This document shows positions 2,421-6,985 of a stretch of DNA of 64,000 nucleotides, one piece after another. Positions within the stretch are counted from its first letter, which is position 1, and every line of letters begins with the position of its first letter. The notes under the pieces were generated by a model, which worked only from the letters and a program-made list of their open reading frames with translations, made no database searches and was not told the DNA's origin. A program made the position numbers and the translations under genes. The stretch lies in assembly GCF_030655665.1 (NCBI RefSeq), contig NZ_JAUSPQ010000006.1, positions 248,001 through 312,000 on the forward strand, read 5' to 3'. The stretch is from Methanocorpusculum sp. Its GTDB lineage: Archaea > Halobacteriota > Methanomicrobia > Methanomicrobiales > Methanocorpusculaceae.

Positions 2421-2473
2421 TTTTATATCAACTCGCACGCGTAGTAACACTTATTACATAATACGTGTTATTG
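2421..2473 (+). promoter_or_regulatory. nikMN promoter with inverted-repeat operator (candidate NikR site)
   Basis: A TATA box (ttttatat, 2421-2428) is followed by an inverted repeat: TAGTAACAC at 2442-2450, a 14-base spacer, GTGTTATTG at 2465-2473 (core TAACAC/GTGTTA perfect). The repeat lies where transcription should start, a typical repressor position for archaea. The same half-site recurs in the chlID/cobN intergenic region (57131-57161). NikR is encoded just downstream and is the obvious candidate; binding is an inference. Confidence 0.6.
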
Positions 2474-2481
2474 TAATATAC

Positions 2482-2487
2482 AGGTGA
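2482..2487 (+). promoter_or_regulatory. Ribosome binding site that fixes an ACG start for nikMN
   Basis: AGGTGA is a full match to the archaeal anti-Shine-Dalgarno sequence. It is followed after 7 bases by ACG at 2495. No ATG, GTG or TTG lies in frame between the upstream stop (TAA at 2474) and the conserved His codon, so this site decides the start. Confidence 0.7.
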
Positions 2488-2494
2488 AAACACT

Positions 2495-3478
2495 ACGCAC
2501 ATACCTGATTTTCTGTTTGGTTATAGCGGACTCGGCGTCCCAATTGGTATCGTATTCTGGATAATTGCTCTTGTCTTTATTGCTCTTGCAATAAACTGGG
2601 CAAGGAAAAATCTTGACGAATCTAAAATCCCGATCCTTGCGGTCATCGCCGCAGGCATTTTTGCCCTTCAGGCATTCAATCTTCCTACCGGTTTTGGTGT
2701 ATCTGGACATTTAGTCGGCGGTGCTCTCGCAGCCATCATTCTCGGCTCGCCTTTTGCTGCTGTATTTATTTTGACGATCGTTCTTGTCATTCAGGCACTC
2801 ATCTTCGGTGACGGCGGAGTCCTGGCACTTGGTGCAAACATCATCAATATGGGTGTTGTTGCAGGATTTGTCGGATTTTACTCATTCAAAGGACTCAGAT
2901 CAGCTCTTCCAAAGCTTCCTCTCGCGGGAGCAGCAGGTATAGCAGCATGGCTTGCGTGTGTTATCGCTGCCTGTTGTGCCGCTGTTGAAATCGCCATTCT
3001 CGGCGCTGTTCCGATCTCGGTCGGTCTTCCGACAATGTTTATCTACCACGCGATCATCGGTATCATTGAAGGTATCATAACTGCGGTTGTGGTAACGCTT
3101 GTCTTCACCGTTCGCCCGGAACTGACGGGAGATACGACGAAAAAGGCTGTCCCGATCAAGAAGTTCCTTGTTGCTGGTCTTGTCATCGCTCTCATTATCG
3201 GGGGCTGTGCGGTCTTATTCGCATCAGGCGATCCGGACGGACTTGACAGCACACTGCTTGTGAGTGGAGGCGTTAAAGAAGTATTTGCTCCGGCAACGGG
3301 AGAAGAGATCATTGAAGCTGAAGATCCGATCGGATGGTCGGCGCCAATGCCTGATTATGCTCTCGGAGATAGTATGGCCGGTGGAATAATAGCCTTGATC
3401 ATAGGAATCTTTGCAGCTCTCGTTGTAATTCTCCTCGCGGCGAAGATCGTCTACTCCTCCTCAGGGAAGAGTAGTTAA
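2495..3478 (+). CDS. nikMN: Nickel/cobalt ECF permease, NikM-NikN (CbiM-CbiN) fusion type, ACG start
   Basis: 327 residues if translation starts at ACG 2495. The product then begins (M)HIPDFL, the CbiM/NikM N-terminus in which the N-terminal amine and His2 bind the metal. A second expected ligand lies in SGHLVGG (His72). Multiple membrane helices cover about 15-230; a CbiN-like part follows (GDPDGLDSTLL, then a final helix at about 295-320). In the family, this S-component captures Ni2+ or Co2+ and works with an ECF T-protein and ATPases (NikQ/NikO), which are absent here. The operator and neighbouring nikR favour nickel. Starting at the first normal start codon (TTG, far inside) would delete the metal site. 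Annotation pipelines will probably truncate this gene. Confidence 0.85.
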   Translation, partial: THIPDFLFGYSGLGVPIGIVFWIIALVFIALAINWARKNLDESKIPILAVIAAGIFALQAFNLPTGFGVSGHLVGGALAAIILGSPFAAVFILTIVLVIQALIFGDGGVLALGANIINMGVVAGFVGFYSFKGLRSALPKLPLAGAAGIAAWLACVIAACCAAVEIAILGAVPISVGLPTMFIYHAIIGIIEGIITAVVVTLVFTVRPELTGDTTKKAVPIKKFLVAGLVIALIIGGCAVLFASGDPDGLDSTLLVSGGVKEVFAPATGEEIIEAEDPIGWSAPMPDYALGDSMAGGIIALIIGIFAALVVILLAAKIVYSSSGKSS

Positions 3479-3570: not shown

Positions 3571-3990
3571 ATGGTTGGAGAGTCGGATCTTTCACGTATT
3601 GGTATTTCGCTGCCTGAGAATCTTCTGAATAAATTTGATGATATCATCGGGAAACGCGGATATTCTTCAAGATCGGAGGGGATCAGGGATGCGATCCGTT
3701 CCTATATCACGTATTATGAATGGATGAATGACGTTTCGGGAGAACGCCAGGGTGTCATTACGATGGTCTATGATCACGATCACCGCGGTCTTATGGAAGC
3801 GATCACGGAGATCCAGCATGGAAACAGACATATTGTCCAGTCCACTATCCATTCACATGTCAGTGATGAACGGTGTCTTGAGGTCATTCTTGTCCGTGGT
3901 CAGGGCGAACAGCTCAAAACGCTTGCAGAGCGCCTTATGTCTCTCAAAGGTGTTGAGTCAGTGAAACTGACAACAATAAAAATCGACTGA
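3571..3990 (+). CDS. nikR: Nickel-responsive regulator NikR
   Basis: 139 residues: an N-terminal ribbon-helix-helix DNA-binding domain (LSRIGISLPENLLNKFDDII, about 7-48) and a C-terminal ACT-like nickel domain. The four high-affinity Ni ligands are all present as His83, His94, His96 and Cys102, with exactly the spacing of E. coli NikR (76, 87, 89, 95). NikR represses nickel uptake when nickel is plentiful. It sits 92 bases after nikMN with a TATA-like ctaatatag at about 3541, so it may have its own promoter. Candidate targets in this window are the nikMN promoter and the chlID/cobN divergent promoter. Confidence 0.95.
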   Translation: MVGESDLSRIGISLPENLLNKFDDIIGKRGYSSRSEGIRDAIRSYITYYEWMNDVSGERQGVITMVYDHDHRGLMEAITEIQHGNRHIVQSTIHSHVSDERCLEVILVRGQGEQLKTLAERLMSLKGVESVKLTTIKID

Positions 3991-4019: not shown

Positions 4020-5159
4020 TTATTTATTCGTTTTTTGCTTCAGAGAAGCTCTGTCTATCAACGTATTCAGCACGCTCTCGATAAACAGAATCCCACCCTC
4101 GACCCCGGCAATTGGCCGTGCCGCTATCGAGACCCTGCTTCGGTCGGGCGGCGTGATCCCGAGGAATGCGGCGTTGGGATGGGCATTTGCTTCAAATGTT
4201 GATCCTAGAATAAGGTCAGGAGCGCAGTCAGCAATCTGCCTGGTGATCTTCGTCAGATCGGTTTCACAGGGAATAGATACTGCATCACTGTTTCGTGCAA
4301 GGATTACCGGGACCTCGGAGCCAAAATAATGTTCCATCATCACTGTGGCGAACACTGCGTAACTCTCCTGAGCGCAGACGGCCACGACCGGCGGTTCATA
4401 TTTTCGGAGATACTTGTCGCATGAATAAAAAATCTGCTCGTCAGCGCGTTTCCATTCCTCAAAAACCGGATCTGTATCTGCGTTCGGGAATGTATCTGCG
4501 AGTTTTGCACAGGTCTCTTTCAGATTGGAGAACAGAAATGAACCAAGCATCGTTCCGATTCCCGACGGGTACGACGGATTTACCGATACGGTATGGAGAG
4601 CCGCTCCCTGCCGGAGATTTTCATAGCTGTCTTTCGCGAATCGGACGGCCACCGGGATTCCCATTTGTGAGAGAAGCCGCTCGGCTTCGTGGAGATTTCC
4701 CCGCCAAAAGAGATCCAAAAGAGAAACCCCGTCGATGTTCACGCCTTCGCGCGATGGATCCGTCTTGATCCCGAGACTGTCGAAGGCGATCTTCGCTCCC
4801 TTCTCAACATTCCCGATAAATCCGGGAGCGTCGACAAAGATCCCTTCCCCTCCGGAAAACGCCCCCGAGAGATCATCGCCGGTAAGTGCCGGGATACAGG
4901 TGTTCAAAATGGCGATCGGTTTGTTCGACGTCGAAAGATTGCTCACGACTTCTCTCAGGCGGTTTACCGTCCCGAACACGATCTCCGACTCCAGGAGATA
5001 GGTGCTGAACAGCGGGACCTTCAGCAGTGACCGTGGATAATAATAGCAGCCTGAAGAGCCGTGGATAAGCACGTTGATCCCGGAAATGCCGGCAAGGACT
5101 GAACAGGCCCCTGTCATGGCGCACGGCCAGACCGGATTCACACACAGCCTTTCATCCAT
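4020..5159 (-). CDS. Nitrogenase-like protein, NifK/NifE-type subunit, function unknown
   Basis: 379 residues. The N-terminus aligns by eye with the P-cluster half of NifK: NPVWPCAMTGA (Cys13), IHGSSGCYYYPRS (Cys38) and LNTCIPALTGDDL (Cys88). The Cys spacings of 25 and 50 compare with 25 and 58 in NifK. The protein is much shorter than NifK (about 500 or more residues). It is the last gene of the nitrogenase-like operon and overlaps the NifD-like gene by 8 bases, so the two are probably coupled and form a heteromer. F430-forming CfbD is a single homodimeric subunit and does not come as a pair, so this is not standard CfbCD. No nifE, N or B is nearby. Substrate unknown. Confidence 0.85.
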   Translation of the reverse strand: MDERLCVNPVWPCAMTGACSVLAGISGINVLIHGSSGCYYYPRSLLKVPLFSTYLLESEIVFGTVNRLREVVSNLSTSNKPIAILNTCIPALTGDDLSGAFSGGEGIFVDAPGFIGNVEKGAKIAFDSLGIKTDPSREGVNIDGVSLLDLFWRGNLHEAERLLSQMGIPVAVRFAKDSYENLRQGAALHTVSVNPSYPSGIGTMLGSFLFSNLKETCAKLADTFPNADTDPVFEEWKRADEQIFYSCDKYLRKYEPPVVAVCAQESYAVFATVMMEHYFGSEVPVILARNSDAVSIPCETDLTKITRQIADCAPDLILGSTFEANAHPNAAFLGITPPDRSRVSIAARPIAGVEGGILFIESVLNTLIDRASLKQKTNK

Positions 5160-6207
5160 GGAGGATCGCCCTCCTCCAGAGATAGAGCATCTTCATTGTC
5201 CCGGATACCCCGACAGGCAGATAGAACGGCAGTCTCACTTTGATTCCCTTGGGAGACTCGGTCATCCCAAGGCGTTTTAGCGCTTCCCGTGCCACGGCAA
5301 GTGTTCCTTCGAACGGTTCGACCCCGAGGCAAACCTCGCTCTCGGAGAGATTTGCAAATCGTTCGAGCATCATTTTCTGGTGTTCAGTCTCTTTCGAAAT
5401 CGCTTCTGCGATAACGTCTGCAGAAAGTCCGCAGGCTTTTCCGGTCTCCTGCAAAAATGCGATCGAACCTGAGAGTCCCCGTGGAAACTCGCCGATCACC
5501 GGTCGGTTGAATCTCTTTCCAAGTTCACGTCCCGCATCTGCGCAGCGTCCGTCTCGTAAAATAAAACAAGAGACTGTTCCAAGTTTTCGGAGATCCGCTA
5601 TCCCGGCATTTCTGCAGAATCTGACCGTGACGGTAAGGTCCAGCAGATCGAGCAGCCGACTCACCTCGGCAAAATTCTCCTCGACCTCGGACTCCAGATT
5701 TTTTTCCCCGATGATTCCAACAGTCCCAGGAATCGGTTCGGCAGGCGCTGCCAGAGTTGAAAGTCCGATCAGTGCAGCGTTCTCCCCGTCCTTTGCACTC
5801 CCTCCAAGGAACCCGGATGTTGGAATATAGAGGGCCGACGCAGCATACGGATGTTCCCGGCAGACGGCCAGACAGTCATCGCCGATCGTTTCCGGCACGC
5901 AGGATGTAACTACGATGATCAGCTCCGGATGTTTCTCTGCTGCACGGTCAAGAGCCTGATTAAGACAGGCCTCTCCGCCGAAGATGACATCTTTGTCAGA
6001 AAGACCCGAGACCAGGATCTCAGGGACGATTTTCGTCTCCGCTTCGTTCATCAATGCATGGAGCATGGAAAATGTCTGATGGGCACAGCCTTTCGGGGCG
6101 TGAACTACCGTTACTGCCCCGGGAATAAAACAGGCGACGGAAAGGGCACCTGTGAGGGTGCACCCTGCCATCCTTGACTCAGAGATATTCTCTTGCAAGT
6201 TCTTCAA
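5152..6207 (-). CDS. Nitrogenase-like protein, NifD-type subunit, function unknown
   Basis: 351 residues. It carries the three P-cluster-type cysteines of NifD: Cys16 ([10 protein letters not shown]), Cys41 (HAPKGCAHQ) and Cys103 ([13 protein letters not shown]), spaced 25 and 62 (26 and 66 in NifD). The stretch [19 protein letters not shown] mirrors the NifD 'DIVFGG' region. It is short and lacks an obvious C-terminal cofactor-binding region, so a FeMo-type cofactor is doubtful. The start at 6207 overlaps the NifH-like gene by 29 bases; Met13 (6171), just after that gene's stop, is an equally good start. Neighbours: NifH-like upstream, NifK-like downstream, nickel genes beyond. Confidence 0.85.
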
Positions 6208-6985
6208 GTTCCTCTAATTCGAGCGGTGTCGGGATCCTGAGATCAGTGTTATCCAGCATCGTTTTTGCACAGTCACGGTAAACAGCCGCCTGCTCGGATG
6301 TCGGGTCGTGTTCGATGACCGTCATCTGATTCACTTCCGCTGTCCTGACCGAGTTGCTCCGCGGAATATAACAGATAAGCTTTGACCCGATCCTTTTTGC
6401 AAATTCCTCGACGAGTTCCTGTTCGTTCTCCATATTTCTCGCGTTGCAGATCACACCGGCAAGCCGGCATTTCGCGGTGCTTCGCTCCGATATCCGGGCT
6501 ATCGCTTTACAGATATTATTCGCCGCATAGAGACTCATCAATTCCCCGCTTGTCACAAGATAGACCTCTTGTGCATATCCGTCTCTCATCGGCATCGCAA
6601 ACCCTCCGCAGACGACATCGCCAAGAACATCATATACTATTACGTCCCCATAGAGCGAATTCATTTTTTCCAGAAGCTGGAACGTTGCAATGATCCCCCG
6701 ACCCGCACACCCGATCCCCGGCTCAGGTCCTCCTGCCTCGACACAGCGGATGTTCCCAAATCCCTGATAGATTATGTCCTCACTTTTGATCTTCTTCTGA
6801 TCATACATCTGTTCAAGAACGGTCGGGATCCAGCGTCCGTGCATGAGCATACGGGTACTGTCATGTTTCGGGTCACAGCCAATCTGCATGACATCCAGGT
6901 CCATCTCCGAAAATGCCGCCGAAAGATTTGCCGATGTAGTGGATTTTCCAATACCTCCCTTTCCATAGAGGGCGATCTGTCTCAT
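6179..6985 (-). CDS. NifH-like reductase of the nitrogenase-like operon
   Basis: 268 residues, the usual NifH length. P-loop GKGGIGKST (8-16), CDPKHDST (37-44), and both [4Fe-4S] ligands: Cys93 in [13 protein letters not shown] and Cys126 in [14 protein letters not shown]. In the family the homodimer bridges a cluster between its subunits and passes electrons to the DK-like partner with ATP hydrolysis. It leads the operon; a TATA-like ttatatg lies upstream on this strand. The match to NifH motifs is very close, but the partners are short and no nif cofactor genes are present, so I place it with the uncharacterised nitrogenase-like (group IV-type) reductases, not with nitrogenase. Confidence 0.9.

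Follow-up and report, generated by a model that had tools for sequence, protein, structure and literature searches.

The DNA analysed here (the window) is a stretch of 64,000 nucleotides, bases 248001-312000 of contig C6 in a 1.81 Mb Methanocorpusculum genome (G000). Near its beginning lie nikMN, whose product joins a CbiM/NikM domain to a PDGLE (NikN-like) domain, and the gene of a nickel-responsive regulator, nikR. The features that bear on the start of nikMN are the following.

2445..2470, + strand: inverted repeat TAACACTTATTA / TAATACGTGTTA, upstream of the Shine-Dalgarno sequence; putative NikR operator
2474..2476, + strand: in-frame TAA that closes the nikMN frame upstream of the start
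2482..2487, + strand: Shine-Dalgarno sequence AGGTGA, complementary to the 16S 3' end GGATCACCTCCT of the same genome
2495..2497, + strand: ACG, proposed start codon of nikMN, kept in six species
2495..3478, + strand, stop included: nikMN (PF01891, PF13190 and NF004902 over cut-off)
3571..3990, + strand: nikR (NF002169, NF003381, NF002815, PF08753 and PF01402 over cut-off)

The CbiM domain of nikMN scores 166.5 bits against PF01891, for a curated cut-off of 23.1, and the product would have 327 residues if initiated at the ACG. Although the family models themselves say CbiM, we infer that the substrate is nickel rather than cobalt because nikR adjoins the gene. By sequence, the protein matches the NikM/CbiM S components 4m58, 4m5b and 5x3x across most of the CbiM domain, and differs from them in its start codon and in its fused C-terminal PDGLE domain. 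In sequence alignment its His72 falls on His67 of 4m58, a metal ligand. A second histidine (His2) stands right after the start codon, and the HIPD motif that it opens is present in all six species with ACG. One account of the family states that the first two residues of NikM/CbiM help to bind the substrate (PMC6828968), and the start of nikMN can therefore hardly lie elsewhere.

Direct reading of positions 2482-2500 bore out the arrangement described by the first-pass annotation: AGGTGA, a spacer of 7 bases (2488-2494) and the ACG (2495-2497, + strand), immediately 5' of CAC ATA CCT GAT TTT CTG (HIPDFL). Codon reading likewise agreed with its statement that an in-frame stop at 2474 precedes the ACG with no ATG, GTG or TTG in between, as none of the three occurs among the six sense codons that separate the TAA (2474-2476) from the ACG (TAT ACA GGT GAA AAC ACT). 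The first standard start in the frame is a TTG at 2771, codon 93 counted from the ACG, and an open reading frame listing that allowed only ATG, GTG and TTG began nikMN there. The 12-base, nearly perfect inverted repeat at 2445-2470 is partly conserved across the genus in an alignment of 11 sequences and is probably a NikR site. No common RNA structure was evident by eye around the start.

Between 2386 and 5159, nikMN and nikR are followed by genes on the opposite strand, and no T component adjoins them; the three CbiQ homologues of this genome lie elsewhere (C9:22775, C6:124060 and C8:132632). Close to the pair, on the other strand within 4020-6985, are CfbC of the synthesis of coenzyme F430, which contains nickel (NF033200 over cut-off), and two nitrogenase-like subunits (below cut-offs), giving the surroundings the look of a nickel neighbourhood.

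Distribution and origin of the ACG codon

A protein search of 25 Methanocorpusculum genomes located the 5' end of nikMN in 17, the remaining eight containing only a distant CbiM (four genomes) or nothing (four). The start codon of nikM in related species, a comparison to which the first-pass annotation had pointed, is ACG in 6 of these 17 genomes and ATG in 11. The six are the genome of the window, G005 (matching the finished M. labreanum Z), G006 (matching M. parvum XII), G010 (matching UBA424), G011 (matching UBA425) and G023. Among the best 80 of 222 relatives, 79 loci reach the N-terminus (the 80th, whose match begins at residue 22, was dropped); the codon before the histidine is ATG at 63 of them, TTG at 7, GTG at 6 and ACG at 3, all three belonging to the Methanocorpusculum ACG group. 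The CbiM paralogues whose start could be read use ATG (L002 and L004 in the genome of the window, and five in relatives), no start having been read for L003 and L108. A viral scan, in which 12 stretches matched, yielded no relatives.

The species that share the ACG are diverged: four-fold sites of the gene differ by 34-65% among five of them, and only 22 of 155 such sites are invariant in all five. All of the six but the window have a TGA three codons before the ACG (-9), so that no ordinary start is possible there, and the codons between TGA and ACG vary in these five (AAC or AAG, then ACT, ACA or ACC).

We then searched for the pattern of Shine-Dalgarno sequence, ACG and HIPD in other genomes. 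Within the order it occurs in exactly 7 of 232 genomes, the six Methanocorpusculum species and G196, by a pattern that demands GGTG upstream as well as HIPD and would miss ACG starts without these. G196 matches Methanosphaerula palustris E1-9c, which belongs to another family than Methanocorpusculum. Its nikM frame reads TGA GGT GAA ATC ACG CAC ATT CCA GAC, with a codon before the ACG (ATC) that is itself near-cognate, and remains intact for 213 residues after the ACG. In none of the six Methanocorpusculum species, nor in G196, does the frame contain an AUG, GUG or UUG after the last stop and ahead of the conserved N-terminus. By eye, the NikM of G196 is followed by frames resembling NikN, the ATPase and the T component, which has the look of a full nikMNOQ cluster. 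A different pattern, requiring Phe or Tyr at residue 7, matched G196 and one further locus, L220, which is a short frame and not NikM. Across a sample of the phylum, 8 of 392 genomes match; two of these, G411 and G450, have short frames unrelated to NikM. The stretch shared by these two genomes of another family (L254 and L255) is short, conserved and non-NikM, and reads GGTGA..ACG CAC ATC CCC GAC.

Phylogenetic analysis suggests that the codon arose at least twice, independently in Methanosphaerula. On a tree of 81 NikM domains the distribution of ACG needs three changes, of which the starred branches force two, and a single clade of all six ACG rows (G196 with Methanocorpusculum) is rejected (AU test, p-AU 4e-78). 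All trees exclude G023 (broken frame) and G022 (short frame), and the 81-row tree also excludes the Methanobrevibacter loci L080-L083 and L075. Within the genus, the NikM domain is short, and the ACG rows of Methanocorpusculum do not come together as one clade on its tree. In a tree of full-length proteins rooted on four outgroups, the five ACG genes are united in a single, moderately supported clade (88/86, not starred), and a quick unrooted DNA tree places all six ACG species on one side of a branch. Because both of these trees group the ACG genes, a single replacement of ATG by ACG, in the common ancestor of the six Methanocorpusculum species, appears the likeliest course; an earlier gain of ACG followed by return to ATG is less likely.

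Alternative readings of the 5' end of nikMN

Translation might begin at a codon other than ACG, a reading that we consider quite unlikely. The candidates are the neighbouring ACT/ACA/ACC or AAC/AAG codons, Ile3, Leu7 and the TTG at codon 93. Codon 3 is ATA, ATC or ATT, all near-cognates, in each of the six species, but a start at Ile3 or beyond would lose His2, which is invariant in the genus, and Leu7 is moreover CTA in G011. The TTG at 2771 has in its favour that it is the first standard start, but it would remove 92 residues, a stretch conserved with many synonymous changes. As for the codons upstream, one E. coli reporter study gives ACG 0.1-1.5% and ACT 26-33% of the activity of ATG, with values that vary with context (PMC6925171), and ACT, which outdid ACG in that reporter, occupies position -1 in four of the six. 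Both codons ahead of the ACG (-1 and -2) differ among species, however, whereas the ACG is constant; ACT is the weaker candidate because the -1 codon is ACA or ACC in two of the six. The wider family also speaks against a start at another place, the codon before the histidine being ATG, GTG or TTG at 76 of the 79 loci and ACG at the other three.

Alternatively, C-to-U deamination could edit the ACG of the mRNA into an AUG, which would then be decoded as usual. Such a change has been described for chloroplasts, where the ACG starts of rpl2, psbL and ndhD are edited to AUG (PMC9845219), and nikMN likewise bears ACG at its start site. Editing would also render the C harmless. To our knowledge, no such mRNA editing exists in archaea, which counts against this explanation, and we regard it as very unlikely.

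That nikMN is decaying, with the ACG as its first lesion, is highly improbable. In its favour stands the one-contig genome G023, where the frame is broken near residue 90 into two overlapping frames (L105/L126, G023:C1 near position 1004052), but that break may be an assembly slip or a true loss, and the gene is intact over about 326 codons in the other five ACG species. Codon differences per species pair among these five number 80-154 synonymous and 24-47 nonsynonymous, an excess that argues for purifying selection on a living gene.

Apart from these readings, we asked whether selection keeps the ACG by comparing its C with neutral sites, taken as four-fold sites with C in G005 in eight genes present in all five species. 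At 167 of these 285 sites no T occurs in the other four species, and at 52 C is present in all five; across these sites, the retention of the C in the ACG does not go beyond neutral expectation. The codon's failure to return to ATG thus does not exceed what neutral sites show, which suggests no strong preference for ATG at this position.

A start at the GTG within the Shine-Dalgarno sequence, followed by a frameshift, is barely credible: all six species have a GTG in AGGTGA, but relative to the ACG it lies at -11 in the window, at -10 in the five other species and at -8 in G196, and no common slip would serve because it lies in different frames. The misread base that the first-pass annotation had feared is refuted, because six separate assemblies carry the ACG, as does G196, and one of the six matches M. 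labreanum Z, a genome reported as finished at <1 error per 50 kb (PMC3035222).

Initiation machinery and the extent of the exception

The components that would decode the ACG are ordinary. The initiator tRNA has the anticodon CAU in all 11 genomes examined (six with ACG, four with ATG, and G196), and across these genomes the molecule, with its GGG/CCC anticodon stem, is identical or almost identical. A special initiator tRNA was considered and set aside. Run over 30 loci plus 15 additional stretches, ARAGORN assigned a tRNA to each of the 46 places where Rfam has one in the genome of the window, and just one anticodon among them is CGU, that of an ordinary threonine tRNA. The factor aIF1 is nearly identical in the six ACG and four of the ATG species.

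Upstream of the ACG, all six species have the identical AGGUGA hexamer, whose duplex is computed at -8.4 kcal/mol in each, compared with 0 to -9.6 kcal/mol (mean -4.8) in the eleven ATG species. The difference is compatible with a strong Shine-Dalgarno sequence making up for a weak start, though the comparison is of one clade with another. Three of the ATG species show the reverse of the ACG species, with little or no Shine-Dalgarno pairing before nikMN (L092, L093 and L096, in G009, G004 and G018).

To see how local the exception is, we surveyed contig C6 for frames that are 70 codons or longer and share 55% identity or more with their best match in 374 kb of G005, which gave 313 frames, some of them surely non-genes. 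Among these, nikMN alone has a long conserved coding sequence before the first start shared as ATG, GTG or TTG, with 117 identical residues and 36 synonymous differences over 120 aligned codons. A loose rule had flagged 59 of the 313, nikMN included; four others were looked at closely, and the remainder were set aside on their synonymous counts alone (7 or fewer). The four include the only two other frames with at least 10 synonymous differences, which were accounted for, one by ATGs separated by a few codons and the other by its position opposite a longer frame. For the window itself, 40 conserved frames were each compared with two to four relatives, and four were flagged, one being nikMN; the other three showed a broken alignment, a leader conserved ahead of a shared ATG, and matches only to distant ABC-type frames. 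With an ordinary initiator tRNA and aIF1, and with ATG at the start of the readable CbiM paralogues, the exception is local to nikMN.

The first-pass annotation had proposed that translation begins at the ACG, and the proposal is well supported by the fixed position of the codon, its presence in six species, one of them with a finished genome, its independent recurrence in a second lineage and the lack of any usable standard start. Taking these sequence comparisons together, we consider it likely, with a probability of roughly 0.85, that the initiator Met-tRNA starts nikMN at ACG, aided by the conserved Shine-Dalgarno sequence. In the proposed mechanism, AGGUGA would recruit the message and set the ACG in the ribosomal P site, where the initiator tRNA (anticodon CAU) would pair with A1 and G3 and tolerate the mismatch at the middle base. 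The protein would then start Met-His-Ile-Pro-Asp, presumably with methionine as the first residue, placing its free amino terminus and His2 where the family binds metal. The output would be expected to be lower than from an AUG. Efficient use of ACG in archaea is not a given, because aIF1 of Sulfolobus has been reported to favour discrimination against non-canonical starts (PMC6237735).

ACG initiation in archaea and beyond

In eukaryotes and viruses, ACG starts have been described in adeno-associated virus (AAV), in the P/C gene of Sendai virus and in mammalian cells, where the codon is a near-cognate decoded by Met-tRNAi, found by scanning and often used for an alternative product. The codon of nikMN is the same, and so would be its near-cognate decoding, but it would be the only start of the main protein and would be placed by a Shine-Dalgarno sequence. 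For archaea, one review names AUG, GUG and UUG as start codons following a Shine-Dalgarno sequence (PMC7531240). As in the initiation described there, nikMN has a Shine-Dalgarno sequence matching the 16S 3' end together with an ordinary initiator tRNA and aIF1; unlike in GUG and UUG, the mismatch in its start would fall on the second base of the codon and not on the first. No case of archaeal ACG initiation was found in the open-access literature, to which the search was confined.

A more ambitious interpretation is that the ACG of nikM is a selected translational throttle, reached at least twice, in which a strong Shine-Dalgarno sequence combined with a very weak start would keep nickel uptake down, in addition to control by NikR, perhaps with initiation that changes with metal or growth. 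We consider this doubtful: the neutral-site comparison speaks against it and lends no support to the low-efficiency control step that the first-pass annotation had suggested. If true, it would be, as far as the open-access literature goes, the first conserved ACG initiator of an archaeal main protein.

The finding also bears on annotation and on the study of initiation itself. Archaeal gene finders commonly allow ATG, GTG and TTG, and because they allow only these, genes of this kind would be missed or truncated. The start of nikM is known from protein chemistry, because the metal site includes the first residues, and the gene therefore offers a natural experiment of unusual clarity on the stringency with which archaeal initiation, whose machinery is close kin of the eukaryotic one, recognises the second base of a start codon. 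Finally, the two separate cases would provide ready pairs of ACG and ATG species for comparison.
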